This document shows, piece by piece, positions 2,589 to 58,540 of a stretch of 64,000 nucleotides of DNA. The notes under the pieces are model-generated. The model was not told the DNA's origin. It searched no databases and saw only the letters and a program-made list of their open reading frames with translations. The stretch's first letter is position 1. Every line of letters starts with the position of its first letter. The DNA comes from Actinomadura graeca (GTDB taxonomy: Bacteria; Actinomycetota; Actinomycetes; Streptosporangiales; Streptosporangiaceae): positions 8,370,001 to 8,434,000 of the forward strand of contig NZ_CP059572.1 of assembly GCF_019175365.1 (NCBI RefSeq), read 5' to 3'. The position numbers and the translations under genes are program-made.

Positions 2589-3587
2589 CGGACCGGCACG
2601 CCGACCGGCGAGCTGCGGCTGATGACGGTCGGCGGATGGGTGCCGTGGCTGGCCGACACTCTCGACCCCGACCACGGCCAGCAAGCCTTCCACACCTACG
2701 TCTGCCAGGACTCGGTGCTGCTGCCTCGGCGTGCGGCCGGACGCAACATCGTCGCGCGGTGGCTGCCCTGGATACCACCGGGCACCCGGAAGCGATCGGC
2801 ACGCAAGATCTGCCCGAGTTGCGCAGCCGACCCCGACCGCGGCACCCCCCTCACCGCCACGCTGCTCCTCACCACCAGCTGCCCCGAACACGGGTGCCGA
2901 CTGGAACCCGAAGTGGACGTCCGCGTCGGTATCGCCATTGCAGAACCGGTACCGGCCCGGCACGCGCCGACGCCTCTGGTCACCTTGGACCGCCTCGCCC
3001 ACCAGGGCCTGACCAGCGGCGGGGTCACACTGCCAGGGCGAGCGATCCACGTCGGATTATGGTTCCGGCTGCTGCGCACCCTGGTGGATGAGGTCACTGT
3101 CGCCCCCTCACAGGTTGGCGCCCGATCCGCCGCCACCCTGCACCAGATCTGGGACACTGCGGCTGTCTCGGCGCGGGCCGGTCTGCGGCTCTGGCGGCCC
3201 TACGAACGCCTCGACCCCACGTACCAGGAGGCGATCCTGCGAGCCGCGGGCACCGCGCTGCACCTCGCCGAGACCGGCGCGATCACCGCCCGCGGCACCC
3301 TCGGTGCGCTCCTGGACCCTCCCCGGCACCAGCCCGTCCACGATGGCGACCCGCCCGGCACGCCCGCCGACCCGTGGAGGAACCTGCAGGGCGAGGCCGA
3401 GGAGGTGCTGGAACGCGCACGCACCGACCCGGCCACCGCCCGCCAGATACTCACCCTGTTCACCCGCCGCTGCCGCACCCTGGCGCGCTTTGACCGGGAA
3501 CGCCATTTGCTGATCGCCTCGGGCGTCCCCGCGGCATTCCTTCCAGACGCCCGCGAGTTCGGCCGCTCCGATCTCCTCCAGCCCTGA
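2589..3587 (+). pseudogene. TniQ-family protein, N-terminally truncated next to IS copy 1
   Basis: An open frame of about 330 residues starting directly at the IS junction; the first ATG is at 2622. Early Cys residues form a zinc-finger-like unit (ICPSCAAD, then TTSCPEHGCRLEP), as in TniQ proteins, which recruit Tn7-like transposition machinery to targets. The rest is helical, as in actinomycete TniQ. Known actinomycete TniQ proteins usually begin earlier, with an N-terminal segment before the zinc finger, and are generally longer. No 5' part is seen on the far side of the IS (before 1567), and no tnsB/tnsC partners are nearby. I infer a relic, although translation from 2622 cannot be excluded. 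Confidence 0.6.
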
Positions 3588-4209
3588 CTTCCAGGGCTGC
3601 TACGGCCGTCGCGGTTCCGTGGCATGACGAAGTCTCCACCGTTCGGAAGCTTCGTCTACCTCGGGGGTTACGCGTTGAGAACGTCTCGGAAGCCCTTGAG
3701 TAAGCCTTCCGACTCGTGACGCGACCGCGCCGTCACCGAACCGCAGCAACAAAAGCGACCTTCTGCATCAACCGCTGAGCCCGAAAGCCAGACACTCAAG
3801 CCACGAGGCCCCTGCACCCATCGCTCGCATGTACGCGATAATGCGCTACTAGCGTGACATCGCCGTGGTGAGCCGTGAGCGTAGCCATGGTCGGCTGGCG
3901 TGATGTGGTGTTCCACTCCGGGCCTTGCCTCAGTTTCGCTGCGCGTCACCGCGAGGCCAGTCTCGTGGCGGTTGGCCGCTGTTGTCAGGTCTCCTCATCA
4001 ACGCTGGTGTCCCCGGCGTTCTTCTTCGCTACGCCTTCGCCCATACCGGCTTCACTGCGGGCGGCGGCCCTTCCACGCCGCTGCTGCCTGACCGCAGTCG
4101 GTCCATGACGTTCGCGTGTCTTGCGCTGGTACGCGGGGAGATCGCAGGTTTGCTGGAGGACGCCGAATGTGGGGAGCCAAGGCTAGGGGATGTGCAGGAG
4201 GCCAGGGGC
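3588..4209. other. Intergenic stretch without a supported gene
   Basis: Only short ORFs with atypical composition are present, including the upstream extension of the NTPase frame (3925-4209). I see no convincing gene, terminator or RNA. Confidence 0.5.
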
Positions 4210-7200
4210 ATGGGGCTGTTTGTGGGGCGCAGCGAGGAGCAGGACCGGTTCCGGCTGGTGCTGGCCGAGGCGGCTGCCAGGGGCCGTGGTGGCCCGGATG
4301 AGGCGTACGTGGTGCTGGTGCAGGGTTATGGAGGGATCGGGAAGTCGACGCTGCTGCGCCGCTTCATCGACATCGCCGCCGGTGGCCTGCCGGAGGTCTC
4401 GGCTGGGCGGTTCACGGTGTTCTTGGTGGACTGGGAGCGGGATCGTGAACTGCACGCTGAGGAGTATGTGGAGTTCGCCGGGCCGCCGATCTGGCGGATC
4501 CTGGAACGGATCCGCACCCAGATCGAGAACTCCGCCGCGTCCTGGGGGCCGCTGGAGCGACGCCGCCTGAAGGGGTTCGCCGCCTTCCAGCGGCAGGTGA
4601 CCAAGCTGCCGGAGCTGGAGGCCGATGCCACCCGGCTCGGTCTGGGCAAACAGGCCGCTCACCGGCCGCTGACGCCCGTGCAATTAGCCGCGATCGTCAG
4701 ATCCGGCGGAGAGATCGCCAAGGTCTCCGGTGCGCCGGCCGCGATCGTCGGCGCCGCCAACACCGTCGCGGGCGCGGGCGCGCAGATCGCCACGACCTTC
4801 CAGCAGAACCGGGCCGTCCAGATCGACCCTGCCGCCTACCGTGCCCTGGTCGACCAGATCGATGCGCTGGTGACCGCGTTCACCGACGGCCTGAGGGCAT
4901 TGGCGCGCAGGCGGCCGGTGGTGGTGGTCCTGGACACCTGCGAGCTGCTGGGTGCCTCCGGGCCGTGGCTGCGGGAGGTGATGCGCCGCTCGGGCCGTCG
5001 GGTGGTGTGGGTGATCGGCACCCGGCTGGAGCCCGACTTCGTGGCAGCCGGCGACAGCGAAGCCGTCCGGTACAAACGTGAGATCGACCAGCAACGGCTC
5101 CGGACCATGACCCTGCACCGCTTCGATGACCGCACCGCGGCCGACTACCTGCAGCGGCGCCTGGGCTCGCTGCCGCCCGGCCTGGACCTGGAGCGGGTGA
5201 TCGCCCTGACCCAGGGGGTGCCGCTGGCGCTGCACTTGATGTACAGGATGCTCGCCGACCAGATCCGCGTCGGCCGTCCCTTCGACGGCCTCTACGACGA
5301 GGTCTCCGCAGAGGGCACGGTCTCGGCGGTGGTGGCCCGGATGGCCGACCGCTACCTGCACCACGCCACCTACGATCCCGGCTCCGACCTGCACCAGGAC
5401 CTGACCGCCCTCTACGGCCTGGCTCTGGTCAACGTCGAGCAGACCCCTGCCCGGCCCCGCGCATTCCCGCCCCGCTCCCTCGGCGACCGGTGGGAACCAG
5501 TCCGCCAGGACACCGACACTGCGGTCACGATCGATCGTGACCCTGACCTGCTCGCCGCCCTGTGGGGCATCGAGGTCCACGATGTCGCCGCCCGGCTCGA
5601 TGAACTCGGCCGTCACCACGACTTCGTGCACAGCGGCACCGGCACCCTGCACCGTGACGTCCGCGACGCCATCCGCACCTTCCTGCTGAGCCCCAAACAC
5701 CGCGCCACCGTCACCGACATCAACACCCGCGCCGCCGATCACCTCATCCAGCAACTCAGCGCCCACCAGCACACCGGCATCGACGACCAGCTCACCGACG
5801 CCACCTGGCGCACCACCACCGCTGCCCTGCTCTGGCATACCTGCTGGATCAACCCCGCCGACGGTATCCCCCTGCTCCGCCACCTCTACCTCCCCGCCCG
5901 AGTCCTCCAGCCCTCCTACGCCCAACTCCTCCTGGACATCACCGCCACCTTCGCCCCCTACCTCACCGCCACCGACCAGAAGCTCCTCACCCACCTCACC
6001 GACCTAGACTCCCGGTCCCCTCAACGCCAGGCAGCCCGAGCAGCCATCGACGCCCTCACCACCGCCCCCACCCCCCAACCACCGCTCCTGCACGGCGACA
6101 CCCAGCCATACCTGGACCTCCTCCGAGCCGAAACCGCCCCCGCGCTCGATCTGGACCTCGCCGACCAGGTCATCCACCTGCGCCGCGCTGCCCGCGCCTT
6201 CCCATCCGGCAGCGGTCCCACAGCCACCAAGCTCGGCGACATCGCCCAGTCCTGCACCCTGACCACCCCCAACACCCAGCCCACACGCCTGCAAAAGGCC
6301 CTCATCGACGCAAAGAAGCTCGCCACCCGCTACCATCCCGCCGATGCAACGGCCCACATGAACCTCGGCAGTGCACTATGGGAGCTGGGGCGGTTCGCCG
6401 AGGCCGAGACCGCCGAGCGCAAGGCCATCGAACTGGACCCCGATAACGCCATCGCCCACAACAACTTCGGGATCACGCTGGTGGACCTGGGGCGGTTCGC
6501 CGAGGCCGAGATCGTTTACCGCAAGGCCATCGAACTGGACCCCGATAACGCCGTCGTCCACACCAACGTCGGGAACATGCTGGTGGAGCTGGGGCGGTTC
6601 GCCGAGGCCGAGATCGTTTACCGCAAGGCCATCGAACTGGACCCCGATAACGCCGTCGTCCACAACGGCCTCGGCAACGTGCTGGTGGACCTGGGGCGGT
6701 TCGCCGAGGCCGAGATCGTTTACCGCAAGGCCATCGAATTGGACCCCGATAACGCCGTCGTCCACACCAACGTCGGGAACGTGCTGGTGGAGCTGGGGCG
6801 GTTCGCCGAGGCCGAGATCGTTTACCGCAAGGCCATCGAATTGGACCCCGATAACGCCGTCGTCCACACCAACGTCGGGAACGTGCTGGTGGAGCTGGGG
6901 CGGTTCGCCGAGGCCGAGATCGTTTACCGCAAGGCCATCGAACTGGACCCCGATAACGTCAACGCCCACAACGGCCTCGGCAACGTGCTGTTGGAGCTGG
7001 GGCGGTTCGCCGAGGCCGAGATCGTTTACCGCAAGGCCATCGAATTGGACCCCGATAACGCCGTCGTCCACACCAACGTCGGGAACGTGCTGGTGGAGCT
7101 GGGGCGGTTCGCCGAGGCCGAGATCGTTTACCGCAAGGCCATCGAACTGGACCCCGATAACGTCAACGCCCACAACGGCCTCGGGAACGTGCTGGTGGAG

Positions 7201-8139
7201 CTGGGGCGGTTCGCCGAGGCCGAGATCGTTTACCGCAAGGCCATCGAATTGGACCCCGATAACGCCGTCGTCCACACCAACGTCGGGAACGTGCTGGTGG
7301 AGCTGGGGCGGTTCGCCGAGGCCGAGATCGTTTACCGCAAGGCCATCGAACTGGACCCCGATAACGTCAACGCCCACAACGGCCTCGGGAACGTGCTGGT
7401 GGAGCTGGGGCGGTTCGCCGAGGCCGAGACCGCCTTCCGCAAGGCCATCGAACTGGACCCCGATAACGTCAACGCCCACAACGGCCTCGGGAACGTGCTG
7501 TTGGAGCTGGGGCGGTTCGCCGAGGCCGAGACCGCCTTCCGCAAGGCCATCGAACTGGACCCTGATAACGCCATCGTCCACAACAGCCTCGGGATCACGC
7601 TGGTGGAGCTGGAGCGGTTCGCCGAGACCGAGACCGCCTTCCGCAAGGCCATTGAACTGGACCGCGACTACACCAGTGCCTACGGCTGGTTAGGCAGGTT
7701 CTTGTTGTTCACCGGCGAGTTGGAACGGGCGAGGCTGGGTTTGAAACAGGCCGACGGTCGGCCGCGCACCGAGCTGTTGCGGTGGATTGTCGCCCGGGTC
7801 AACTCTCAAGACGGTGCCTCGATGCATACACCGGATTCGGTGCTGGCCGCCTTTGCCGACCCCTGGCCTCCCCGGATAGTCCGTCCGTCGATGTTCGCGG
7901 TGGCCGAGATCCGTGCACTAGCAGTGGCCGGCAACGGGAACGGGCCGCAGGCCGTAGAGATCCTCCGCTCCGCAATGGACGGCCGGCGCCCGCGCGATCG
8001 GTTCGTGCGGCCGTTATATGACCTGCTGACCCGTCCCGAGCCGGTTGCCGGGCTGGAGGGGTTGCTGGAGGTGTGGCGGGAGATCATCGCTGCGGATCCG
8101 TCGGCGGCGGGCCCGTGGGGCGGCCCCGACCCCGCCTGA
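4210..8139 (+). CDS. STAND-type NTPase with C-terminal TPR array
   Basis: A protein of about 1,309 residues. ATG 4210 is chosen over the more upstream in-frame starts (3925, 4105) because AGGAGG lies at 4196-4201, and because the protein then opens MGLFVGRSEEQDRF, the usual start of this ATPase class. Domains: Walker A GYGGIGKST (39-47); Walker B VVVVLDTCEL (about 236-245); sensor-like VVWVIGTRL (about 264); GxP motif QGVPLAL (about 336); a helical linker; 13 TPR units (about 713-1154); and a 150-residue tail. STAND NTPases act as ligand-triggered switches in signalling and in anti-phage or programmed-death systems, with TPRs as the sensing arm. No separate effector domain is visible, so its output is unknown. 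It stands alone and converges on a WD40 gene across a perfect hairpin. Confidence 0.8.
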   Translation: MGLFVGRSEEQDRFRLVLAEAAARGRGGPDEAYVVLVQGYGGIGKSTLLRRFIDIAAGGLPEVSAGRFTVFLVDWERDRELHAEEYVEFAGPPIWRILERIRTQIENSAASWGPLERRRLKGFAAFQRQVTKLPELEADATRLGLGKQAAHRPLTPVQLAAIVRSGGEIAKVSGAPAAIVGAANTVAGAGAQIATTFQQNRAVQIDPAAYRALVDQIDALVTAFTDGLRALARRRPVVVVLDTCELLGASGPWLREVMRRSGRRVVWVIGTRLEPDFVAAGDSEAVRYKREIDQQRLRTMTLHRFDDRTAADYLQRRLGSLPPGLDLERVIALTQGVPLALHLMYRMLADQIRVGRPFDGLYDEVSAEGTVSAVVARMADRYLHHATYDPGSDLHQDLTALYGLALVNVEQTPARPRAFPPRSLGDRWEPVRQDTDTAVTIDRDPDLLAALWGIEVHDVAARLDELGRHHDFVHSGTGTLHRDVRDAIRTFLLSPKHRATVTDINTRAADHLIQQLSAHQHTGIDDQLTDATWRTTTAALLWHTCWINPADGIPLLRHLYLPARVLQPSYAQLLLDITATFAPYLTATDQKLLTHLTDLDSRSPQRQAARAAIDALTTAPTPQPPLLHGDTQPYLDLLRAETAPALDLDLADQVIHLRRAARAFPSGSGPTATKLGDIAQSCTLTTPNTQPTRLQKALIDAKKLATRYHPADATAHMNLGSALWELGRFAEAETAERKAIELDPDNAIAHNNFGITLVDLGRFAEAEIVYRKAIELDPDNAVVHTNVGNMLVELGRFAEAEIVYRKAIELDPDNAVVHNGLGNVLVDLGRFAEAEIVYRKAIELDPDNAVVHTNVGNVLVELGRFAEAEIVYRKAIELDPDNAVVHTNVGNVLVELGRFAEAEIVYRKAIELDPDNVNAHNGLGNVLLELGRFAEAEIVYRKAIELDPDNAVVHTNVGNVLVELGRFAEAEIVYRKAIELDPDNVNAHNGLGNVLVELGRFAEAEIVYRKAIELDPDNAVVHTNVGNVLVELGRFAEAEIVYRKAIELDPDNVNAHNGLGNVLVELGRFAEAETAFRKAIELDPDNVNAHNGLGNVLLELGRFAEAETAFRKAIELDPDNAIVHNSLGITLVELERFAETETAFRKAIELDRDYTSAYGWLGRFLLFTGELERARLGLKQADGRPRTELLRWIVARVNSQDGASMHTPDSVLAAFADPWPPRIVRPSMFAVAEIRALAVAGNGNGPQAVEILRSAMDGRRPRDRFVRPLYDLLTRPEPVAGLEGLLEVWREIIAADPSAAGPWGGPDPA
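6346..7671 (+). repeat. 13 tandem 102-bp TPR-coding repeats
   Basis: Each 34-codon unit carries LGRFAEAE...YRKAIELDPDN. The middle units are nearly identical in nucleotide sequence, and two alternating sub-types (NAVVHTNVGNVLVE and NVNAHNGLGNVLVE) recur. This indicates recent expansion by unequal exchange or gene conversion. The outermost units are more divergent. Confidence 0.9.
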
Positions 8140-31618: not shown

Positions 31619-33469
31619 ATACCTCGAACCACGTCGACCGGGGGTGCCAGCAGGCTCCGCGCGGCCGCGGGCTACGGCTCGCGTTGGCTGTGGAGGCCAT
31701 GGGCGACATGCCCCGCCCGCAGCGGCCCGCCGAGCAGGCCACCAGAGGCTGCGGATCCAGCGCGCGCGCCCCCTGGTAGAGGTGTTCGTCATATGGGCCG
31801 GCCCTGATCAGCCGTTCCGGCCGCGCTCGTTCGCACGATCCCGGTCCACCGGGGGAGTGGCCTGGCCGAGGCTGGCTACGACGTCTTCAACCGGTTTCAT
31901 CGGGACGCCTTGCAGCGGCCCCACCGCGAATAGCGACCTCGGTGAAGTCCAGAAGTAGCTCCGTCTGTGAGCTGGGAAGACGCGATCTGCCGCACAACGG
32001 CGCAACCGTTTCGTACTGCCCTGCGCTGCCGGAAGAGGGGCTACGGAGGTCGCCCCGGCGGGGCCAGTTGAAGACGTCATGGCCAGCCGAGGCTGCGCTG
32101 ATCGATGTCCCTACTTTCGTCGACGCGTTCGACCCTGCCGGTACGCCCGATTGCGTAGTAGGTTCCGAAGGTTAGGACCCCGCCGAGAGTCTGCTGATCG
32201 CCTGGTACCGCTGGCACGGATCCAGCGGGTGCGGTCGGCCGATCTGGATGCATCGCCCGGCGCGATGAGTTCCGGCCGCGCCCCGGCGGCCACTGTGTTC
32301 GCGTCGCTGCGGAGTGCGGAGTGCGGTGTGGAAATCGCCGGGGCTGGTGTCGGTTCGGCCAGGTCAGCGAGGGCGTCAAGCATGGAGATGCACCAGCCAT
32401 CGGCATTGGGCAGGGCGAGCCGGCCGTGGCGTGGGCGAAGTCCGTCGGGGAGTGTGGCTGGGCCGTAACCGCTGCCATGGCTGTTTGCGTAAGGCGGCCG
32501 ACGCGGCGCCAGTCGTTGTGCGGAGCCCAGCAGCCGCTTGATCTCCTTGCTGGCGTCCAGGCCGTCGTGCGCGCAGCCGGGTGCTGGGCCAGGGCCTTAT
32601 GCGCATCACCGGCTGGCCGGGGCACATTCGCGGTAGGTGAGCACTCAACGCCGAGCCGGTTCCGGACGATCTTCGCCGTGGGCTCCACGAGTTCTTCAGC
32701 AGCGTGGAACCCAGAGGTCAAATCACGGGCTGAAACAGGGCGGGACGCCTGTGCGACCTTGCGGACCGCTCTCGTCCGCTCCATGACGGGCAGGCTGCTC
32801 ATCGGGGCCGCCGCCGGGAAGCTGCCACTTCCCTATGACATAGAGGTCGTAGCGGCTTTCAGGTCACAGGTTCCCGCGGGTCCCCGTGGTCCAGGCGACG
32901 CAGTGCGTTTTCCCTTCTGGCCGCCAGCGGCGACCTCACCACGGAGTACCAGGACTGCGAGCACCTGCCGCGATCAACACATCCACTATCCAAATTTACG
33001 GCTACATCGGCCCGGCATCCACGTGGAATCCGGGTGAACAGGGATGCGCATGGCACGCGGCGGACACCACGTGGAGCGGAGTTGATCTGTTCATCCAGCA
33101 TCGATAGGCCGATGACGATCGCCAGACCGGCCTGGCGAGGATAGATGACGAAGGCGAATCTGAGAGCGATGGACAGGCACAGACCAGCCGCGTGAGTTCG
33201 CTTACATGGCCGGAAACGGACAGCAAAGATGGGAGTGTCGACCCTTCCGAGCAAGCCGGTGTTGCCGACTTGTGATCTACGCGCCAGCCGGTAGCCGAGA
33301 AGATCTATCCGGATCCGCGGATCTTGGTGTCGCTGCGCAAAATCGTCACCTCTGCCGCTGCAGAGCGCGGATTCGTCATCTCGTGGTCGCTGGCGGCGCC
33401 AGTTCGCGACCGGGTAAAAGCGCTGGCAGGCCCGCACGCAAGTCCGTCGAGGTAAGAAGTTACTGACGG
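31619..33469. other. Degenerate 1.85-kb region
   Basis: Many overlapping ORFs on both strands, none with a recognisable domain or good start. Apart from the possible relic at 32111-32802 I see no gene, RNA or repeat. It separates the mobile/relic region from the folE cluster. Confidence 0.45.
32111..32802 (-). pseudogene. Possible frameshifted gene of unknown family
   Basis: A protein-like frame on the minus strand (FHAAEELVEPTAKIVRNRLG, then PRPAGDAHKALAQHP) appears to switch near 32580 to another frame (HDGLDASKEIKRLLGSAQRL, GPATLPDGLRPRHG, then LALPNADGWCISMLDALADL). The composite looks coding but I do not recognise it. Frames were joined by eye. Confidence 0.25.
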
Positions 33470-33617: not shown

Positions 33618-34322
33618 ATGGACGGGCCCAGCGAAAACGGAGACGCCATCGTGGGCGGCTCCATCGTCGAAGGTTTGGAGTATCGAGCTGGAGCAACAGA
33701 GACCGTTTCGCATGAGCTTCTGCCCGCCGAGGACCCTCTCGAGCCGCGCAAAAGGTCCTTCGACCACCACATGATCGAGACAGGTGTCACCATGATCCTT
33801 GAAGGGCTGGGGCTGGACCCTGACCATCCTAGGATCAAGGACACGCCGACGCGTTATGCCCGGATGTGTGACGAAGTGTTCTCTGGCCTGCTAAGCGACG
33901 GGCGAGAGGCCATGAATAGATTCTTTGACGAGAACCACAATGAGGTGGTGATCGTGCGTAACATACCGTTCGCCTCGGTGTGTGAGCATCATCTCGTTCC
34001 GTTCATCGGCGAAGCCCACATTGCCTACTTGCCGCATCCGGACGGCTTTATCACCGGTCTGTCGAAAATCGCGAGGCTGGTGGACGTCATGGCTCGCCGT
34101 CCGAGCCTGCAGGAGCGGATGACCAGGGAGATCGCGGAGAAGATCGAGGAGGTCCTGCGTCCCCAGGGTGTGCTGGTTGTCGTCGACGCCGAGCATCTGT
34201 GCATGACCATGCGGGGTGTGCGCAAGCCGGGATCGGTCACGGTGACCAGCGCAGCTCGCGGAAAGATGCAGTCGGATCCGGAGACCAGGCGCGAGTACAT
34301 GGGAATGCTCCGCAACCCGTAG
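33618..34322 (+). CDS. folE: GTP cyclohydrolase I
   Basis: 234 residues. It converts GTP to 7,8-dihydroneopterin triphosphate, the entry step to pterins and 7-deazapurines. After an extra N-terminal segment of about 45 residues come the family blocks: DTPTRYARMCDEVFSGL, FASVCEHHLVPFIGEAHIAY with C122 and H125, and VVDAEHLCMTMRG with C195. These are the three zinc ligands, all intact. SVTVTSAARG is the usual C-terminal block. GGGAGTG precedes ATG 33618. It is the first gene of a seven-gene unit. A primary folate-pathway copy would normally sit with other fol genes, so this one is probably pathway-specific. Confidence 0.93.
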   Translation: MDGPSENGDAIVGGSIVEGLEYRAGATETVSHELLPAEDPLEPRKRSFDHHMIETGVTMILEGLGLDPDHPRIKDTPTRYARMCDEVFSGLLSDGREAMNRFFDENHNEVVIVRNIPFASVCEHHLVPFIGEAHIAYLPHPDGFITGLSKIARLVDVMARRPSLQERMTREIAEKIEEVLRPQGVLVVVDAEHLCMTMRGVRKPGSVTVTSAARGKMQSDPETRREYMGMLRNP

Positions 34323-34358
34323 CGGAACTCCAAGGCTGCAACAGAGAGAGGAAAAGGT

Positions 34359-34715
34359 ATGATCGTATTTAAGGAGTTCAGGTTCGAGGCGGCGCACCAG
34401 CTGCCGCGCGTGCCGCCAGGGCACAAGTGCGGCCGGGTGCATGGCCACTCCTACCTGCTGAAGGTGTCCGTGGACGGCGAGGTCGACGGTGAGTTGGGCT
34501 GGGTGATCGACTTCGCTGACATTGGCGGCCCGGTTAAAACGCTGGTTGGAAGACTGGACCACCGGCTTCTGAACGACATTCCAGGCCTGGATAATCCTAC
34601 CTGTGAGGTCCTCGCGCGATGGGTGTGGGAACAGCTCATCGCACAACTCCCGGTACTCAGCGAGGTAGCAGTCTGGGAGACAGCCACGTCCGGCGCCATC
34701 TACCGGGGACAGTGA
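34359..34715 (+). CDS. queD: 6-carboxytetrahydropterin synthase / PTPS-family enzyme (QueD-like)
   Basis: 118 residues, the normal length for QueD. Zinc ligands are H13 (FEAAHQLP), H28 and H30 in the CGRVHGHSY motif. C24 in Cys-x3-HGH is the catalytic Cys typical of QueD/PTPS-type enzymes. It acts on the FolE product dihydroneopterin triphosphate to give 6-carboxytetrahydropterin (QueD) or a related tetrahydropterin. A good AGAGGAAAAGG lies before ATG 34359. No queE or queC follows, so the product probably feeds another pathway encoded by the next four genes. Confidence 0.9.
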   Translation: MIVFKEFRFEAAHQLPRVPPGHKCGRVHGHSYLLKVSVDGEVDGELGWVIDFADIGGPVKTLVGRLDHRLLNDIPGLDNPTCEVLARWVWEQLIAQLPVLSEVAVWETATSGAIYRGQ

Positions 34716-34725
34716 GCCACGCTTC

Positions 34726-36060
34726 ATGCGAGACGAACCTGACTGTGCATGGAGCACCGAGATGTACCCGCCCGGCTCCGGCGAACGCGTTGTGATCTCT
34801 GTCTACCTGGACAGGCCCAACGAGGGCCAAAATCGGAACTTCTTCTACGAGAAGACTGTAAGGCTACTTGCTAAGAAGCCCCTGCAAAGCCTGGTACGCG
34901 AACGAAGCGCCGAGGCGCTAGCCCGGTGGCTGGGCCGCCGCATGGTGCGTTGCAGAATGCCCTCTGCACGGCGGATCGAGGTGGAATTGCACTCCGCTGA
35001 ACTAACATCACATGGAACGTGGCAGAAAGCTAAGTCCCGTCAAAGGGGCACGAAGACCAGGGATCGCACACGCTTCCTCAGGAACGTGTTCGGTGAGCAC
35101 CAGTTACAGATCCCCGGGAAGCGTGCTTCCGAGAAACCGACGACCACCTGGGACTGGAACCGGGCAGAAGACATCCTGGCAGGCACTCCCGGGAATGTCG
35201 TTGCGCTGCTCTGCCCTCCATATACCAAACATGCCGCCGATGGTCGCTTGAGCGGATATAACGGGCTATTCACCGATGCTTTCGCTTCACCGAAAGCCTT
35301 CCAATCCGACTACGATTACCGGAGCCAGTTGGCCGGGCTGCAAAATGCCGCCCGGCTACTTCGAAATCAGGGCGTGCAGAGTCAGCCATGGGCGATCTTG
35401 GGAGACTGGGCGCTGGTGGACCTGCCCGGCGTTCGCCAGACCGCCGGCAACGATGACGAGATCATCCAGAAGCTGGGTTCCTTTACGGCCAGCTTGCGGG
35501 AGTTGTGCGCGCAGGCCTTTCCCCAGCACATGGTGCTGTCGCTCACAGAACTGGGTGTCTCGAAACACCTGCCGCTGGGATTCTCCAAGCACGCACCCGA
35601 GCGCCGCAACTGGCTCGCGAAGCGGATAGCGGAGGGAATAGACTGGATCGGTGACGAGATGCTAGACGCCGTCATGAGGCTACCGGATGACGGGCTGGAA
35701 AAATGGCTGTCTCCAAAAGACTACCGGGACATCCCTGCCGAAGTTCGGCCAGCGGCAACCGTGCTAATGCAGACCTACAGGAGCATCGCCTACGTGCGCT
35801 TCCGAGAGGAATTCCACCGCGCTGCGGGCCCTGGGGAACTCGATTCTGGCGAGCGTCGCGCGCTGCTGGAATCAGCATTCTACGACGCGCTCCTACGCTA
35901 CGTCGAGTACCAGCTCTATGCGCGGCTGATCGTGGATCGCCTGGGGCCCTCCGTGTGCATCTACCAGGACGCGGTATTTACTGTCGCGGGCTCATGCCTG
36001 CGCAATAGCGATTTCCCGGTCCTGTTCCTGGACCCATCGTCGCTCGAGGCGGCGACATGA
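34726..36060 (+). CDS. Unknown 444-residue protein of the pterin cluster
   Basis: It starts 10 bp after queD and overlaps the next ATG by 4 bp. No family is recognised. Visible features: a strand-rich start (GERVVISVYLDRPNEGQNRN), a basic helical region (RSAEALARWLGRRMVRCRMP), a central part with PGNVVALLCPPYTKHAADGR and ILGDWALVDLPG, and a conserved-looking block (SLTELGVSKHLPLGFSKHAP). There are no membrane segments and no P-loop, Rossmann GxGxxG or Cys cluster. Alternation of hydrophobic strands and helices suggests a soluble alpha/beta enzyme. From position it probably carries out the committed step on the pterin produced by FolE/QueD. Confidence 0.7.
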   Translation: MRDEPDCAWSTEMYPPGSGERVVISVYLDRPNEGQNRNFFYEKTVRLLAKKPLQSLVRERSAEALARWLGRRMVRCRMPSARRIEVELHSAELTSHGTWQKAKSRQRGTKTRDRTRFLRNVFGEHQLQIPGKRASEKPTTTWDWNRAEDILAGTPGNVVALLCPPYTKHAADGRLSGYNGLFTDAFASPKAFQSDYDYRSQLAGLQNAARLLRNQGVQSQPWAILGDWALVDLPGVRQTAGNDDEIIQKLGSFTASLRELCAQAFPQHMVLSLTELGVSKHLPLGFSKHAPERRNWLAKRIAEGIDWIGDEMLDAVMRLPDDGLEKWLSPKDYRDIPAEVRPAATVLMQTYRSIAYVRFREEFHRAAGPGELDSGERRALLESAFYDALLRYVEYQLYARLIVDRLGPSVCIYQDAVFTVAGSCLRNSDFPVLFLDPSSLEAAT

Positions 36061-36731
36061 TGATTAAGTCTTCCCAGACACCGGACAGGCTAGTTATCTT
36101 TGATCTCGATGGGGTCCTCGTCGATGCGCAAGGGGCCGAATCCCAAGCTTTGATGAGACTGGGACTCGGCATGGGAGTAGAGCTAACAGACGAACTCGCC
36201 GATGACCTTTTCAGCGGCAAAAGGCTATCTACATGCATCGCCTTACTTGAGGAGCTTGCAGGAACATCTGCCCCGGCCGATGCGGTCGACATCGTGCGCA
36301 GCACTTGTGAGCAGATCCTGCGGACCACTTTGCGGCCGATTCCGGGGGTCGAGCAGGTCTTGGCATGCCTTAGCGTCCACATGTGCGTAGCCTCTAACAG
36401 CCCTAGGGGGATCATCCATTCAAGACTGGAAGCGACTGGCCTGGCCGAATATTTCGGCGACTGTATCTATTCCGCCTACGACATCGGGTTTTGGAAACCG
36501 GATCCTCATCTCTTCCTATGGGCAGCCGAGACATGCGGCTATCCGACCGACCGTTGTGTTGTAATCGAAGACAGCACCGTGGGGGTGCAGGCGTCCCTCA
36601 GCGCGGATATTCCCGTTCTGCGCTACAGCTCACCAGCTCAGCATGCGGAAACCGATGAAGTCACATCCTTCTGTGACATGAGGCATCTCCCCGCCCTGCT
36701 GGAGGCAGGCCCCAGCCACACGCTGTGCTGA
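36057..36731 (+). CDS. HAD-superfamily phosphatase (beta-PGM type)
   Basis: 224 residues, with ATG overlapping the preceding stop. All four motifs are intact: I VIFDLDGVLVD (D16, D18), II VASNSPRG, III Lys in GFWKPDPHLF, IV VVIEDSTVGV. The cap inserted after motif I is helical, as in subfamily I. It probably removes phosphate from a pathway intermediate, such as a pterin or sugar phosphate. This contrasts with the HAD-like protein at 21325, which has lost the nucleophile. Confidence 0.85.
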   Translation: MMIKSSQTPDRLVIFDLDGVLVDAQGAESQALMRLGLGMGVELTDELADDLFSGKRLSTCIALLEELAGTSAPADAVDIVRSTCEQILRTTLRPIPGVEQVLACLSVHMCVASNSPRGIIHSRLEATGLAEYFGDCIYSAYDIGFWKPDPHLFLWAAETCGYPTDRCVVIEDSTVGVQASLSADIPVLRYSSPAQHAETDEVTSFCDMRHLPALLEAGPSHTLC

Positions 36732-37900
36732 AGCCCAGGCTCAAAGTCACGTTTGGAGCACATGTGGAAAAACGCGCCCGGATCATGGTCGTCGGAGCCG
36801 GAACCTTGGGGACCCAAGTTCTTCAAGGCCTTGCCCACTCCTCTTCGCCGCGCACACTCAGCCTAGTCGGCCGGTCGGAAGAATCGGTGGTTCGGGCAGC
36901 CAATCTCGCCTGCCTAAGCGCCGTGCAGCGAGGCTATGCGCCAGAGGTCGGCTATGCGATCTGTTCCCTGGATGACATCGCGCACATGGCCGAGAACATC
37001 TCCCAGTTCGAGCCACACATCATCTTCAGTTCCGCCTCCCTGCAGTCGTGGTGGTTCATCAACAACCTGCCCAAGGACAAGTTCGAAAGGATCTACTCGG
37101 CGAACTTTGGCCCATGGCTGCCGATGCATTTGGCTCCCGTGGCGAAACTGATGCAGGCCGTCCGGATGGCCGGCAGCGGCGCGTTCGTCATTAACGCCGC
37201 CTATCCTGACGCAGTGCACCCCGCCCTCAAAGGCGCAGGATTGAGCCCCCACCTGGGCATCGGCAACGTGGCCAACAACGTCCCGGCGCTGCGTGTCATT
37301 GCCGCGGAACGGCTGGGATGCGGTGTCGAACGCGTTCAGGTCCGCTTCGTCGCCCACCACTACGTGAGCCATCGAATCTCCCGCATGGGGGACGCCAACC
37401 CCCGAACATTCCATTTAACGGTTCAATGCGACGGCCATGATGTTACCCCCGGCGTCGACGTCGGGACCATCTTTAAGCCTTTGCTGGTCAAGTACCGGCG
37501 CGTCGGCGGTCTGGCCGGAACCTTCATGACGACATCATCTGCCCTGAGCGTCTTGGAACCCCTGGCCGATGGCACTGCCAGCGAAGTCCATGCCCCCGGC
37601 TTCGACGGAATGCACGGCGGCTACCCGGTCAGACTCAACGCTGGCCGTGCGGAACTGGATCTTCCCGGCGGCGTTACGCCTTCCGCAGCACGCGAGATCA
37701 ACATTATCGGTCAACGCGAGGACGGCATCGCCGACATCGACGGCAACGGCTACATCACCTTCGAGGAAGCCAGCATGCAGGTCATGCAGGACGAACTCGG
37801 GTACCGCTGCCCCAAGATGCACTGGTCCGAAGCCGACGGGTGGGCCAGGGAACTAGCCGCTCGCTACCGCGCCTACGCACCCCAGACGAGGACGCCATGA
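36725..37900 (+). CDS. NAD(P)-dependent oxidoreductase, saccharopine dehydrogenase-like
   Basis: 391 residues from GTG 36725, which overlaps the HAD stop by 7 nt. A Rossmann motif GAGTLG lies in RIMVVGAGTLGTQVLQGLAH (20-39), followed by LSLVGRSEES. The rest has a catalytic-type domain with FEPHIIFSSASLQSWWFINN, ANFGPWLPMHLAPVAKLMQA, NAAYPDAVHPAL and LGIGNVANNVPALRVIAAER, as in saccharopine or carboxynorspermidine dehydrogenase-like proteins. A C-terminal segment DIDGNGYITFEEASMQVM happens to resemble an EF-hand loop. The substrate is unknown; it is presumably a reductive step of the pterin-derived pathway. Confidence 0.75.
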   Translation: MLKPRLKVTFGAHVEKRARIMVVGAGTLGTQVLQGLAHSSSPRTLSLVGRSEESVVRAANLACLSAVQRGYAPEVGYAICSLDDIAHMAENISQFEPHIIFSSASLQSWWFINNLPKDKFERIYSANFGPWLPMHLAPVAKLMQAVRMAGSGAFVINAAYPDAVHPALKGAGLSPHLGIGNVANNVPALRVIAAERLGCGVERVQVRFVAHHYVSHRISRMGDANPRTFHLTVQCDGHDVTPGVDVGTIFKPLLVKYRRVGGLAGTFMTTSSALSVLEPLADGTASEVHAPGFDGMHGGYPVRLNAGRAELDLPGGVTPSAAREINIIGQREDGIADIDGNGYITFEEASMQVMQDELGYRCPKMHWSEADGWARELAARYRAYAPQTRTP

Positions 37901-39102
37901 TCCGCGCGGGCGTAGCTGGCCCGGTGCCAGTCGTCCTGCTCGACCGCTTCGGCTACCGGTCCTACCACCGCCGGGACGGCACGCCCTTCTTGCCCTGTGA
38001 CCAGTATTCGGTCCGGCTCGTGACGGACGTGGGCAAACTCGATGAGGCCAAGGGCCCCGAAATAGAATCAGTGCTCGGCATCCGGCTCGATGAGGAGACA
38101 TCTCGTTGCGCTGCTGCTTTCCAGTGCAACAACGGTGCTGCCGCAGCCGCCGGTCTGGTGGCGATCTCTGAGGTGCATCTGCTGCTCGGAGCACAGCTGC
38201 GCCAAGAGCTCGGGCTCACCGGACCACACGTGCCCGATGTGCTCCCCTTCCGCGACAAGATTATTATGAAGCAGCATCTGCGCGACCAGGGCATCAGGGT
38301 CCCCGACTTCATGCCGTTCGACCGACGGGCGGCACGCTCACTGCTGCAAACCCACCGGCGGCTATTCGTCAAACCCCGGCTCGGTGCTGGATCGATGGAT
38401 GTCACCGTCCTTGCCAGTCAAGAGGACATCGAGCAGCTTGCCCGCAACCGGCCAGCCGCAGCACAAGAGCTCGACATCGAAGAATACATCGATGGCCAGC
38501 TCTTCCATATCGACAGCGTCGTCGATCACGGCCGTGTCGTCGCAGCAACCGCAGGCCGCACTATCGACCCCACCACCAGCTACCAAGGTCTGCAACCCTG
38601 CCGCGATGTCGGCGTGGCCGAGGGCCCCGAGCTCGACACCTTGCTCGCGTTCAATGAGGCGGTCCTGTCCTGCCACCCAACCTTCAGCGGCGTCACCCAT
38701 CACGAGGTCTTCCTCGCCCGCGGTGAACCAGTATTCTGCGAGATCGCAGCCCGGCCCGGCGGCGGCGGCGTCGTACCAGGCTTTCACTCACGGACCGGCG
38801 CCAACCTCAACGAAATCACCGTCCACGCGCAGCTGGGAGCACCAGTCCCCTCCCAGCTCGAGATTGCCGAACATCTGACCGGCTATGTGATGATCTACTC
38901 CGACAGCGGCGCTCAGCATGCCCTGCCTGCTCTAGCTGGCGAACCATGGGTCATCGACACCCGGATCTCCACTAATCACAACCAGGAACGAAATGCTCCG
39001 GGTGACTGGGGAGACGCCGCGGTCGTCCTGACAGTGCGCGGCGAAACAGAACAACAGGTGACCCTCCGGCTGGATCAGGCCGTCGAACGGCTCGCGCCAT
39101 GA
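37897..39102 (+). CDS. ATP-grasp ligase
   Basis: 401 residues from ATG 37897 (ATGA overlap with the previous stop). ATP-grasp features: [20 protein letters not shown] (about 120-140), [17 protein letters not shown] (nucleotide-binding Lys and small loop), a [20 protein letters not shown] strand, and [12 protein letters not shown] with the metal-binding Glu and Arg. This resembles carbamoyl-phosphate-synthase-like or peptide ligases that join a carboxylate to an amine via acyl phosphate. In this cluster it could couple the 6-carboxyl group of the pterin, or an amino acid, to an amine. Confidence 0.85.
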
Positions 39103-39202
39103 GCGAGCTGACCGCAGTGACGCCGCCATCACGTTGCCGACGGCATCGACTACGGTTGCTCATGGCAGTCAGTCACCATCGAACGTCTGGTTCGGAGGCG
39201 CC

Positions 39203-40684
39203 GTGACCAGACCACAGTCAGACTTAAACGGGCGGGACCGCTCAGCGGTGGTACCCGTCATCTCCTCGCTAGCAGTCAGTCTCCTGCTGGCCGCGCTCGA
39301 TCAGACAATTATGTCCACTGCCCTGCCCACGATCGCTCGCCAACTGGGCGGATACCAGGATCTATCGTGGGTGATCGTCTCGTTCATGCTGGCTTCCAGC
39401 CTAGCGACACCGCTGTTCGGCAAGCTCAGTGACATGTACGGCCGCAGAAAGCTGTACCTATGGTCGCTGGTGTTGTTTCTTCTCGGCTCAGCATTATGTG
39501 GCCTGGCGCCCTCGATCCAGCAGTTGCTGGTCTTCCGCGCTCTTCAAGGGGCCGGTGCCGGCGGCCTGATCGTATTGAGCATGGCCATCGTCGCCGACGT
39601 CGCCCCCGCCGCCGAGCGCGCCCAGTGGCAAGGCGTGTTCGGGGCGGTCTTCGGGATTGCCTCCATCGGCGGGCCGGTCGCGGGCGGCCTCCTGACCGAC
39701 TACGTGTCTTGGCGGTGGATCTTTTTCATCAACCTGCCGCTGGGCGCTGCGGCGATCTTGCTGGCCGCCCGGAACCTGCACCTGCCACGGCGAGTCAGTC
39801 CCCACCGCATCGACTACCCCGGCATGGCCGCGCTTGCTAGTTTGGTGACCACTCTGACCCTGCTGTCCTCCTGGGCTGGCACCACCTACTCATGGGCCTC
39901 CCCGGTCATCATCGGGCTAGCCGCCACAGGCCTGGGTTCACTCATCGCACTTATCCTGCTCGAACGCAAAGCCGCCGAACCAGTGCTGCCGCCCCGGCTG
40001 TTCACCAACCGTACCTTCCTGCTCGCAACGATCACCGTGGCGCTGGTCGGTGTCGCGATGTGGTCAGCCACCACCTTCCTGCCGCTCTTCCTGCAGCTGG
40101 CCTCGGGAACAGATGCCACCGGGTCCGGGCTGCTGATGCTGCCCCTGCTGGGCGGCATGACCCTGTCGTCGGCATTGGGCGGCAGACTGGTCAGCCGGAT
40201 CGGCCGCTACCGTCCCGTCGTCCTGGCTGGCACCGCCCTGGCCACCGCGGCGATGACCGCCCTCGCCGCTATGAACACCGACACCAGCACCCTGCTCACG
40301 AGCGCCGCCATGGTGCTGTTCGGCCTGGGCATCGGCGTGATCTACCAGAATCTGCTCGTCGGTGCGCAGGCCACAACCGCCGCTGGCGACCTGGGGGCGG
40401 CTACCTCCACCATCTCCACCGCCCGGGGCCTCGGCGGGACTGTCGGCATCGCCCTGCTCGGCGCGGTATTCACCACCCGACTCAACACTCGCCTACCAGC
40501 AGCCACCAGCAGCGCCAGCTCCTCGGCCGACTCTCCCTACGCCATCCACCAGGGACTTGACCACGCGACCCGATCTGCATTCGCCGACTCGATCGCGACT
40601 GTTTTCCTACTCACCGCGATCGTGCTGACCACCGCCTTCGCATTATCGTGGCTCCTGCCCAATACTTCACTCTCTGCAAAGTAG
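39203..40684 (+). CDS. MFS transporter, DHA2-type (14 TM) exporter
   Basis: 493 residues from GTG 39203, with GGAGG 4 nt upstream; the upstream ATG at 39134 lacks a ribosome binding site. Hydrophobic segments run along the whole length, consistent with 14 helices. Motif A is [14 protein letters not shown], motif C is [16 protein letters not shown], and [14 protein letters not shown] is typical of DHA2 drug exporters. As last gene of the folE cluster it probably exports the product or gives self-resistance, which supports the view that the cluster makes a small molecule. Confidence 0.88.
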
Positions 40685-40895: not shown

Positions 40896-41030
40896 TCAAC
40901 ACCACCAGGCTGTGCCGGTACGAGAACGGGCGATCGCCGCGCCGTGCTCGCGCAGCACGCGGCAGATCGGCTCGACCCCGAACACCTGCTTGAAGGCGTC
41001 GATGAACGCTATGAGAACCGCTGTGGCCGG
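40896..41030 (-). pseudogene. IS3-family transposase OrfB, N-terminal stub
   Basis: The minus-strand frame reads FIDAFKQVFGVEPICRVLRE followed by HGAAIARSRTGTAWW and a stop. It matches the start of IS3-type OrfB (I-FID-----FGVEPIC-VL-E-G--IA-STYY), but the DDE part is missing. It follows OrfA in the -1 frame, as in active IS3 elements, so the element lost its 3' two-thirds. Confidence 0.65.
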
Positions 41031-41335
41031 TCGAGCCCGGCCGCGAAGAAACCCGCCGCGGCCTTGAGGATCTCGTTGGCGCGCTTGAGTTCGGCGTTCT
41101 CTCGGCGCAGCCGCTTGATCTCGGCGGCCTCCTCGGTCGTGGTCCCCGCCCGCTGACCGGTATCGACCTCGGCCTGGCGGACCCAATTCCGCAGCGTTTC
41201 GGGCGAGCGGATGCCCGGCTTCACCGCCACCGCCCGCAACGCGGCGGTCTCGGTGTCGTAGTCCGCACGGACCCCGGTGACCATCCGCACCGCGCGGTTA
41301 CGCAACTCGAGGGGATAGGGGGACAGACGTGCCAT
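41009..41335 (-). CDS. IS3-family transposase OrfA
   Basis: About 108 residues from ATG 41335, with GGAGAGG upstream; a longer start at 41371 is possible. It has an N-terminal HTH (YPLELRNRAVRMVTGVRADY, then GIRSPETLRNWVRQAEVDTG) and a C-terminal leucine-zipper-like coiled coil (EIKRLRRENAELKRANEILK). Followed by a truncated OrfB, so it cannot produce a functional transposase on its own. Confidence 0.75.
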   Translation of the reverse strand: MARLSPYPLELRNRAVRMVTGVRADYDTETAALRAVAVKPGIRSPETLRNWVRQAEVDTGQRAGTTTEEAAEIKRLRRENAELKRANEILKAAAGFFAAGLDRPQRFS

Positions 41336-41370
41336 GACTCGATCCTCTCCAAGCAATCTAGCCTCGAGCA

Positions 41371-41870
41371 AACCCGGGGCGCTTCAGGATGCGGGCGGCG
41401 GTCAGGTGGTGAGTGCTGCCGGGCAGCGTCCCCGAGGTTTACAGGATCGTCCCGTCGGGTCCGGCAATGACCTGTAGGTTCATGCCGTGGCAGCGATGCT
41501 TGGCCGGGTAGCAGGGCCGGTCGGCGCGCACCCGGTCGCAGGTGATGAGCGTCCCGTCCAGTACGGGCACGTGCAGCCCGTCCTTGCGGGCTTTGCGCAA
41601 CGCCGCTGTCAGCTTCGGTGAGCGCGCTGGCAGCAGGGTCACCGCTTCCTCGACGTAGCGCCAGGCGGTGCTGGCCGAGACCTCAAAACCGGCGGCGAGT
41701 TCGGTGAAGGTCTCGCCTTTGCGTAGGTGGACCAGCACCAGCAGGGTGTGCCGTCCGGCGTTCAGCCGTCGCCAAGGCGCCCTGATCGCTTTGCGACTCC
41801 GCCGGAGCAGTCCGGCCAGGCAGTTCAGCGTCGCGCGCGACAAATCGACGGCGGCACGGTACAAAAGCAT
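41371..41870 (-). pseudogene. DDE_Tnp_4-type transposase, truncated with premature stop
   Basis: The 143-residue frame starts at 41870 with an HTH (TFTELAAGFEVSASTAWRYV) and the first catalytic block (VLDGTLITCDRVRADRP, Asp of LDGT). It stops at TAA 41439 after GPDGTIL. In the same frame after the stop comes TSGTLPGSTHHLTAARIL, the expected continuation, and then the IS3-like boundary near 41371. So it has one nonsense lesion plus 3' truncation by the neighbouring IS3 element. Confidence 0.7.
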
Positions 41871-42256: not shown

Positions 42257-43108
42257 CTACGACTTGCACCCGGCAGCCTGCAACTGCGTGTTGATGCTGT
42301 CTCTGATCTGCTGGCTTTGCTGATTGTCGATCTGGGCGTTGGGGAACTGCTGGGTGATGGTCGAGGCGGCCCCTGCGACGTGGACCCGTGCGGTCCCGGT
42401 GAAGCCATTGGGGATCACGGTGGTGGTGGCGGCGTAGGTGACCCGGACCGAGTAGGTCTCCACCACCGTGCCCGGAGTGGTACTCGTCCTGGCGCAGGCC
42501 CGGATTCCCTTCTCGAAGACCTGGAAGACTCCGCTGTTGATCTGGCCCCACTGCGGTACCAGGTTCGCGCGGAAGGTTGGGCCGTTTGACTCGTAGCCGA
42601 TCAGGTGACCGCCGTGGTATCCCTTGCCGCCGTAATGGCCGACATCACCCCGGCACTTGTTGTCTGCTTGTCCCGGTTCGGCCCGGAAGGAGTAGTTGTT
42701 CGCCAGCCCTTGGTCTGGGCGTCCTTGCGCATCGATGTGGTACCGGTATCCCACCCCCGGGCGCGGGTCGGGTATGTAGGTGTTCGCCTGCGGGCGGTAC
42801 AGCCATTCCTGCCCTTCGCAGGACGGCACGATCGCCGACGCCGAGTACGCGGCCTCCCTGCCACCCGGCCCGCCCTGGAAGGCGACCGCCGGCGCGTGCG
42901 GCGCGGCGTGCCGCGCAGGAGGCGGCGAGGCCGACGCAGGCGCTGCGGCGCCCAGTGCCAATGCCCCCGTCACCAGCACCGCGCTGCCTGTGAGGGCGGC
43001 GGCCCGTGGCATCGCACGCGAGGCCCGGCGACCTCTCAAGAGAAGGGCGCGGGCACGGCCATACCGGGCGGAGGCAGTAGAGCTCGGAGGTGAGCAGAGG
43101 GGGGACAT
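42257..43108 (-). CDS. Secreted DNA/RNA non-specific endonuclease
   Basis: 283 residues. ATG 43108 is preferred over GTG 43111 because GAGGAG is 5 nt away. A Sec-type signal peptide is visible: a basic n-region up to SRAMPRAA, hydrophobic core LTGSAVLVTGALALGAAAPA, and an ASA-type cleavage region. The mature part has the NUC/EndoNS_2 fold: YRYHIDAQGRPDQ, GYHGGHLIGYESNGPTFRAN (GGHLIG corresponds to the catalytic His block) and NLVPQWGQINSGVFQVFEKG. There is no transmembrane anchor. It probably degrades extracellular nucleic acid or competes with other cells. No immunity gene is evident next to it. Confidence 0.85.
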   Translation of the reverse strand: MSPLCSPPSSTASARYGRARALLLRGRRASRAMPRAAALTGSAVLVTGALALGAAAPASASPPPARHAAPHAPAVAFQGGPGGREAAYSASAIVPSCEGQEWLYRPQANTYIPDPRPGVGYRYHIDAQGRPDQGLANNYSFRAEPGQADNKCRGDVGHYGGKGYHGGHLIGYESNGPTFRANLVPQWGQINSGVFQVFEKGIRACARTSTTPGTVVETYSVRVTYAATTTVIPNGFTGTARVHVAGAASTITQQFPNAQIDNQQSQQIRDSINTQLQAAGCKS

Positions 43109-43480
43109 CACGGCTCCTCATGTCGAAGGCCACCATCCTGACACCCTCCGAGTCCGAGTAACTACAATGAGTAGTTGAGTTGTGGCTGTAGAGGCAGAGT
43201 GGTCGTGGTGCGCCCCGCGATCGCCTCCCAAGGGATGGCCGGTGGCGGGCAACCCGAGCCTGAACCCGAGTACGCGCCCGACCGCCGAGGCGGAGGAGGG
43301 TCCTGCGGTGCCTGGTGCCGAAGCTCCCGGACCTGGACGCGGGCACGGCTGGACCGGTCACCGCTTGCGTCACCTGGCCGAGGTGGCCGCCGTCCCGCGC
43401 GCCTGGTAGCCCGGTGACCACCCTGGCCTGGAGAGGCAAGCTCCAGGCAGCCCCCGGGAGGTACGGGACCGAGGAGGGCA
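43109..43480. other. Upstream region of the nuclease gene
   Basis: Contains the nuclease promoter; an AT-rich patch at about 43150-43185 (ACTACAATGAGTAGTTGAG) is the likely core. The ORFs covering it are composition shadows. Confidence 0.4.
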
Positions 43481-56959: not shown

Positions 56960-57471
56960 CGTCTCTCCCAGGCATCGGTGCCCTCTGGTTCCTCAACCAC
57001 TCATGTCATGACTGTCAATAGCGCTGTCACTTTAAGGGGCTGCGGTTTTCGGTCGGTTCCTTCCCGGTTTCCATCTGGTTGCCGCGGAAGCGACTGCTGT
57101 GTCACGGGCGCGTCGCGTCCTTGGCTGCGAGAAAGGAAATCGACCGGAAGCGGTCAAGGGGAGCATCTGTCCCGGGTGATCTCCGGGCCCGCGCTTGGGC
57201 ATTGAAGATAATTTCCAGCAGCGCGCGCCGGAAAGTTAAGTGCCGAGCAGTCGCAGTGGTTGTGAAACGGCGCCATTGCGCGAGCCGCTCTCCTGACCGC
57301 AGTGCGGTTCGCCTGCCCCTTTGCGGGGCGAATGCTGCGCTCACGCGATGGTTCGCGGACCGGGCCGTGGGCGTACTTCGGTCGACCTGGCCCGTCACAC
57401 CACGTCGCCTCATCTGCAGCGCGGGAGCACGCTCCCAGGCAACCGTGCTGGCGTGATCTGGCCTTCGACTA
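56960..57471. other. Region between the SARP gene and IS copy 2
   Basis: Holds the SARP promoter at its left end. No convincing gene; a minus-strand 103-residue frame is Arg/Ala-rich without a family signature. Confidence 0.4.
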
Positions 57472-58487
57472 GGTCCTGTCTCAAAGTGGAGTGAGCGGCG
57501 TGTCCGGCGCCGAAAGTAGTGAGGTCTCCGGTACAGGAGTCATCGACCAAGAAGACCCTGAGTTCCGGAGACCTCGTGGCCACCCTAGCGGTGACGAGGC
57601 GGTTCGACCTGACCGATGAGCAGTGGGCGCTCCTGGAGCCGGTGCTCCCACCGCCCAAGGGGCCAGGTAGGCCGTCGAAGTGGACCAAACGCCAGCTCAT
57701 CGATGGGATCCGCTGGCGGGTGCGGACCGGTGCGCCCTGGCGGGACGTGCCGGAGCACTACGGCTCCTGGCACGCGGTCTACGCGCTGTTTCGCCGTTGG
57801 CAGCGCGCCGGCATCTGGGCAGGCGTCCTGGCCGGGCTGCAGACGCAGGCGGATGCGGCCGGGTTGACCGGCTGGGAGGTGAACGTGGATTCCACGATCG
57901 TGCGGGCTCACCAGCACGCCGCCGGTGCCCGCCGCCGCGGCGATCTGCAGCGCGAGCCACCCGCAGGTGCGGGCACCGAGCCGGCCGATCACGCCCTGGG
58001 CCGCTCCCGCGGCGGGTTGTCGACCAAGGTGCATCTGGCCTGTGAGCAGGGGCAGCGGCCTTTATCGATGGTGGTGACGGCCGGGCAGCGCGGGGACGCC
58101 CCGCAGTTCGAGGCGGTGATGGCCCAGATCAGGGTCGCCCGGCCAGGACGGGGCCGTCCCCGCACCCGCCCGGATCGGGTTCGGGCCGATAAGGCCTGCT
58201 CGTCGCGGGCGATCCGCGCTCACCTGCGCGGCCGTGGTATCGCCTGCACCATTCCGGAGCCGGCCGACCAGTCCGGTCACCGGAAGCGGCGGGGCAGCCG
58301 CGGCGGCCGCCCGCCGTCCTTCGACCCGGTCGACTACCACGGCCGCCACGCCGTCGAGTGCGGCATCAACCGTCTCAAGCGGCACCGGGCTGTGGCCACC
58401 AGATACGACAAGCTCTGCGTCCGTTACCAGGCCGTCCTTGAGATCACTGCCATCAACGAATGGCTCCACCTACTTCGACACACGGCC
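57472..58487 (+). mobile_element. IS5-type (IS427-like) insertion sequence, copy 2
   Basis: About 1,016 bp, almost identical to copy 1 (1570-2585) but in the opposite orientation, with the same imperfect terminal inverted repeats. CTAG is present at both junctions (57469-57472 and 58487-58490), consistent with target-site TA duplication. Confidence 0.85.
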
Positions 58488-58490
58488 TAG
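57519..58490 (+). CDS. IS5-family transposase, copy 2 (consensus-like)
   Basis: 323 residues with an intact DDE triad (D124 in VNVDST, D224 in RADKACSS, E280 in [13 protein letters not shown]) and the conserved [12 protein letters not shown] and [10 protein letters not shown] motifs that are altered in copy 1. It is therefore the more likely active copy. The single ORF starts at GTG 57519; a later GTG (57576, before [12 protein letters not shown]) is possible. The stop codon TAG is completed by the target site CTAG. The IS3-like frameshift seen in other IS families is not needed here. Confidence 0.9.
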
Positions 58491-58540
58491 GCCCGCGCCG
58501 GGGCCCCGGCGCCGGAAGAAGTGAGCGGGCGGGTGGCTCT

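Follow-up and report, generated by a model that had tools for sequence, protein, structure and literature searches.

A seven-gene operon in Actinomadura graeca with pterin-entry enzymes and an orphan protein may make an exported small molecule

We analyzed a 64,000-nucleotide (nt) stretch of the Actinomadura graeca genome (hereafter the window; NZ_CP059572.1, positions 8,370,001 to 8,434,000), which covers 8.37-8.43 Mb; the genome amounts to 8.98 Mb, is assembled in three contigs and is 96.9% complete. Seven plus-strand genes at 33618-40684 of the window encode, in order, the GTP cyclohydrolase I FolE, the 6-carboxytetrahydropterin (CPH4) synthase QueD, a 444-residue protein named U444 here, a HAD-family phosphatase, a Rossmann-type oxidoreductase (RED), an ATP-grasp ligase and an MFS exporter. 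We suggest that this may be a dedicated pterin-entry biosynthetic operon built around an orphan enzyme, making a type of small molecule not yet described. A previous sequence-only reading of this DNA had placed the seven genes here, and their open reading frames (ORFs) were confirmed. It had also proposed a pterin metabolite cluster; an exported pterin product is still the best reading of the operon, but genes of the HAD, RED and ATP-grasp kinds recur elsewhere without folE or queD.

In the proposed pathway, FolE would convert GTP to 7,8-dihydroneopterin triphosphate and QueD would convert this compound to CPH4, two steps that we assign from strong family membership. U444 would then take the place of QueE and transform CPH4 or a close relative, while HAD and RED may make a second piece or partner or finish a side chain; we guess at a phosphorylated polyol or a hydroxy acid as their substrate. 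Judging from its family, the ATP-grasp ligase would form an amide from an amine and a carboxylate, with the 6-carboxyl group of CPH4 as the natural candidate for the latter, and the MFS protein would export the product. We put forward this whole chain, from GTP through CPH4, the U444 step and ligation to export of a pterin-derived small molecule, tentatively, as an account that could well be right; both the pterin identity of the product and the convergence of seven genes on one product are what we infer. A bolder version, in which U444 founds a new enzyme family (a T-fold plus a region of new fold) that diverts CPH4 from QueE towards pterin-6-carboxamides made by ATP-grasp ligation and not by a nonribosomal peptide synthetase (NRPS), is rather doubtful. 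If the product is a pterin, the operon would represent another branch leaving the queuosine/deazapurine trunk at CPH4, without radical SAM chemistry, and would give a protein without relatives in the databases searched a compact, testable home.

The sequence-only reading had credited both entry enzymes with all zinc ligands. FolE carries the ligand motif VCEHH ... EHLCM and QueD the motifs FEAAH, KCGRVHGH, LDH and WET, and the two proteins pass the cut-offs of TIGR00063 and TIGR03367, respectively. The 118-residue QueD reaches the equivalog score of TIGR03367 and contains the QueD active-site motifs. Among solved structures it is closest to CPH4 synthases (E 1.8e-46), with AAH, CGR-HGH, LDH and ET aligning to 4ntm, and it is 57.8% identical to E. 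coli records. Both genes are intact with a ribosome-binding-like sequence upstream of each. The operon folE is a second copy, since a further folE lies at 5.26 Mb of the genome, and a more distant PTPS-family gene is found at 1.45 Mb.

The enzymes that would lead from CPH4 to a 7-deazapurine were not found. QueC had no match in the whole genome at E ≤ 0.001, in a search that was positive in 12 of 14 control genomes, and a QueE query against the whole genome returned nothing credible (best match 48 residues, E 0.008). None of the seven operon genes encodes a radical SAM 7-carboxy-7-deazaguanine (CDG) synthase (QueE), and the operon has the GTP cyclohydrolase I and CPH4 synthase of a 7-deazapurine cluster and lacks its QueE and QueC. 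Because neither QueC nor a credible QueE was found in a genome of this completeness, preQ0 or another 7-deazapurine is unlikely to be the product. The sequence-only reading had drawn the same conclusion from the operon, and neither queC nor a credible queE, which would have counted against it, appeared in the genome. Among 394 genomes sampled from the class, with the source genome counted, 36 have a QueD match, and the four closest relatives of the operon QueD in this sample (54-59% identity) all lie within QueC-QueE-QueD operons; judged by sequence, the operon QueD therefore appears to derive from the deazapurine branch. We also counted the neighbors of 29 other QueD-like loci within flanks of ~1.5 kb, shorter at contig ends. 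A QueE match is present in 22 of them and absent in seven, one of which has no QueD match at the limit used, so QueD without QueE is uncommon.

Some QueD-like loci have neighborhoods of their own interest. In locus L215 (9152-10835), a folE whose product is 46% identical to the operon FolE and a queD precede a queC-like gene (recognized by eye), and the 1.5-kb flanks searched show no match to QueE. In two genomes (L181, 6981-10140; L182, 7268-10402), the gene immediately before the QueD-like one encodes a protein of 914 residues that has a P-loop-like motif, and neither locus shows a FolE, QueE or QueC match in the 20 kb covered. In two others, QueC-QueE-QueD lies near genes of proteins with a DGQQR motif, seen by eye (L179, 9818-15996; L180, 2263-8461), and in L178 (8262-16055) QueC-QueE-QueD is followed by ATP-grasp-like and AMP-binding-like genes (by eye), a possible preQ0-based cluster.

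U444 belongs to no recognized family, as the sequence-only reading had held. It matches no family of Pfam, NCBIfam, PHROGs or PADLOC at the limits used, searches with five segments of the protein yielded Pfam matches below threshold only, and its matches to solved structures are at chance level. Against 5.8 billion proteins, the full protein found only itself among the best 8000 candidates, and residues 120-444 found only themselves among 6598 candidates with E up to 10. U444 is also absent from 64 other genomes of the genus and from plasmids (viral contigs and phage records were not searched), and 395 other genomes of the phylum gave scattered matches in 42, none better than E 0.009. By sequence comparison, then, U444 is an orphan with no known relative in the databases searched; the sequence-only reading had named homologues of known, unrelated function as a refuting result, and none appeared. 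The position of its start is uncertain. The database gene (P0001) is called from codon 121 onwards, which would exclude the putative T-fold domain; codon statistics favor coding from 34726 (codons 1-60, +28.7 bits, with negative values in the other frames), codons 61-120 score just +1.2 bits, and an ATG at 34762 is preceded by GGAG.

Residues 1-112 of U444 are a probable T-fold domain, on moderate evidence. In a single-sequence model of residues 1-122 alone (pLDDT 59.8), the elements resemble in order and shape those of a T-fold (strand-strand-helix-helix-strand-strand), the fold shared by FolE, QueD, FolB and QueF. The PTPS profile gives a signal on the N-terminus that 0 of 5 shuffles reached in one comparison, although this test was picked after the first U444 model had been inspected, so that the decoy counts flatter the signal. 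Glu63 of U444 pairs with the PTxE of QueD; all 31 PTPS rows have E in that column, and so do all 31 FolB rows in the corresponding one. A glutamate at the start of the second T-fold helix anchors the pterin in some members of the fold, and the N-terminal domain of U444 could hold a pterin via Glu63. Residues 1-130 contain no zinc-binding HGH motif. FolB similarity was considered and dropped, as 415 of the 600 natural segments and 187 of the 300 shuffles reached its score of 9.9; therefore, the T-fold reading is not based on sequence similarity to FolB. Two other candidate identities were not supported: U444 has no CxxxCxxC motif that would make it a radical SAM substitute for QueE, and hhalign gave no support for an isonitrile synthase (PvcA/DIT1, PF05141) in the later part of the protein, with short alignments only (P 0.13 over 16 columns and 0.54 over 19 columns).

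The next three genes of the operon have relatives in other settings. A scan of genome contigs with RED alone found no relative, and a scan with a RED alignment (A1) found 99 loci, of which 80 from named genomes were kept; the counts of neighbors cover up to 10 kb to either side of RED, less at contig ends. FolE, QueD and U444 have a match in none of the 80 loci. In 18 loci, no more than 150 nt separate HAD from RED, and of these loci 15 have an ATP-grasp of the type found in locus L029 and 15 an NRPS; 27 of the 80 have no HAD match, and in one HAD is on the opposite strand. When RED is at least 50% identical to that of the operon (13 loci), HAD is adjacent in all but L044 of Streptomyces pacificus. 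The operon ligase differs in type from the ATP-grasp of L029 and, among the RED loci, matches L044 and, weakly, L063 and no others. Because RED beside HAD recurs without folE or queD, HAD, RED and ATP-grasp are, on these gene neighborhoods, not specific to pterin chemistry. The same neighborhoods point to HAD-RED, in many cases joined by an ATP-grasp, as a portable gene set of actinobacterial clusters. In 46 of the 80 loci, RED occurs with a transaldolase-like protein, a sulfotransferase and a methyltransferase (e.g., Pseudomonas L067 and Streptomyces L060), and L067 (6495-13152) has consecutive HAD, transaldolase-like, sulfotransferase, SDR, RED, methyltransferase and MFS genes.

RED itself has N-terminal profile matches to polyketide ketoreductase (2.5e-06), carboxyspermidine dehydrogenase (0.0024) and malate dehydrogenase (0.0092), and 12 of 24 RED relatives match Sacchrp_dh_NADP weakly. 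A lactate/malate-type dehydrogenase is an improbable identity, as the N-terminal profile matches are weak and Ldh_1_N is matched by one of the 24 relatives. Saccharopine dehydrogenases are also present in the azaserine cluster (PMC10445470). The ligase aligns with the L-amino acid ligase 4wd3 (E 1.6e-10), including the EIAxRxGGG motif (aligned against EIAMRIGGGG), and is 33% identical to proteins named NikS, from which similarity and motif we assign it to the L-amino acid ligase/NikS-like ATP-grasp enzymes.

The seven genes are closely packed (Table 1). The sequence-only reading had described overlaps of 4-7 nt, which holds for three of the six junctions (U444/HAD, 4 nt; HAD/RED, 7 nt; RED/ligase, 4 nt, provided that the ligase starts at ATG 37897); the other three are gaps of 36 nt (folE-queD), 10 nt (queD-U444) and 31 nt (ligase-MFS). 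It had also noted a base composition below that of the flanks, and the GC content is indeed 62.2% against 69.8% on the left and 69.1% on the right. Among 228 windows of 7,067 bases, the GC minimum is the one starting at 32501, which overlaps the operon. The operon was probably acquired laterally.

Table 1. Genes of the operon and regions of U444, with positions in the window and the basis of each assignment.
Feature	Position	Strand	Basis
folE, GTP cyclohydrolase I	33618..34322	+	PF01227 228.2 bits; TIGR00063 214.8 (cut-off 181.6)
queD, 6-carboxytetrahydropterin synthase	34359..34715	+	TIGR03367 98.4 bits (cut-off 89.25)
U444, orphan protein	34726..36060	+	No family and no relative except itself; codon statistics indicate coding
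U444 residues 1-112, probable T-fold domain, no zinc motif	34726..35061	+	Single-sequence model, fold comparison, PTPS profile signal, motif
U444 residues 120-444, fold unassigned	35083..36060	+	Whole-protein model too poor to interpret
HAD-family phosphatase	36057..36731	+	PF00702 68.8 bits; TIGR01509 67.9 (cut-off 29.4)
RED, Rossmann-type oxidoreductase, no curated family	36725..37900	+	217 proteins at E ≤ 0.001, including itself
ATP-grasp ligase, L-amino acid ligase kind	37897..39102 (ORF open from 37840)	+	PF02655 25.4 bits (cut-off 23.2)
MFS exporter, EmrB/DHA2 type	39134..40684	+	TIGR00711 256.7 bits (cut-off 230.2)

The chief rival to a single pathway is a pair of adjoining but independent units with separate products, one being folE-queD-U444 and the other a HAD-RED-ligase-MFS cassette. 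We consider this unlikely: the recurrence of RED beside HAD without the first three genes (0 of 80 loci), the ATP-grasp in 15 of the 18 HAD-adjacent loci, and the 45%-identical ligase following RED in L044, alongside a phosphoenolpyruvate (PEP) mutase, all argue for it, but the 4-nt overlap of U444 with HAD couples the two halves and the low GC content spans both. It is distinctly unlikely that FolE and QueD supply a tetrahydropterin cofactor and that U444 acts on a non-pterin substrate from HAD and RED. Such a division of labor would suit the probable pterin-type domain of U444 and the functioning of HAD and RED in non-pterin clusters; however, QueD strips the side chain that known tetrahydropterin cofactors retain, and U444 matches no pterin-dependent hydroxylase family.

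The origin of the entry genes permits two further explanations. With the four closest QueD proteins all encoded in QueC-QueE-QueD operons, folE and queD might be leftovers of such an operon after the loss of queC and queE and no longer relevant, which is improbable given that both genes are intact, with their motifs and ribosome-binding-like sequences, in a tight operon. A pathway to a 7-deazapurine nucleoside, with the QueE reaction supplied by a gene elsewhere or by U444, appears very improbable. QueE is the usual neighbor of QueD (22 of 29 other loci) and a gene could be missing from an assembly that is not fully complete, but the genome has no QueC, its best QueE match is the 48-residue one, and U444 lacks CxxxCxxC.

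Other features of the window were recorded as well. Inverted copies of a transposase gene at 1566-2588 and 57469-58491, 98.4% identical across 1,023 bases, bracket 55 kb that include the operon, and two transposase genes in pieces lie immediately 3' of the operon (41009-41870), a possible edge of an acquired stretch. A protein of the DNA/RNA non-specific endonuclease family is encoded on the minus strand (42257-43111), and a long run of a 102-base repeat (6381-7667) lies within a 1404-residue ORF (3925-8139). A scan of the window found no RNA family at its gathering score and no tRNA.

Our searches of the open-access PMC literature showed no folE-queD cluster without queE but with an ATP-grasp, and no dedicated pterin cluster other than that of pepteridine. 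Among the genomes compared here, Sphaerisporangium album (L043/L029) has adjacent HAD and RED (50% and 56% identical to those of the operon) with an ATP-grasp and an MFS gene close by; it differs from the operon in its NRPS genes, the type of its ATP-grasp and the lack of folE, queD and U444. In Streptomyces pacificus L044, the gene immediately after RED (53%) encodes an ATP-grasp that shares 45% identity with the operon ligase; unlike the operon, this locus encodes members of the amidohydrolase and inositol phosphatase families and a fusion of PEP mutase with an FMN dehydrogenase, and it has no HAD, folE or queD match. The fusion is a single 684-residue ORF (3069-5120) of the PEP mutase and FMN-dependent dehydrogenase families. 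The 7-deazapurine clusters, which include those of toyocamycin and, reportedly, huimycin (PMC7439116), are also close to the operon. The tubercidin cluster (tubA-I; PMC6112128) has an MFS transporter, GTP cyclohydrolase I and CPH4 synthase in common with the operon, and in addition a radical SAM ring-contraction enzyme, a phosphoribosyltransferase, a GMP reductase, a UbiD decarboxylase and a Nudix hydrolase, none of which is in the operon. The pepteridine cluster of Photorhabdus (plu2792-plu2799) makes an acylated tetrahydropterin with an E2-NRPS fusion that joins the acyl group to the pterin (PMC5384830). In the operon, no gene has a match to an NRPS or a pyruvate dehydrogenase family. The operon shares with this dedicated cluster a GTP cyclohydrolase I and a PTPS-family enzyme, and where the pepteridine cluster has a pyruvate-dehydrogenase-like E1 and the E2-NRPS fusion, the operon has an orphan enzyme and an ATP-grasp ligase.

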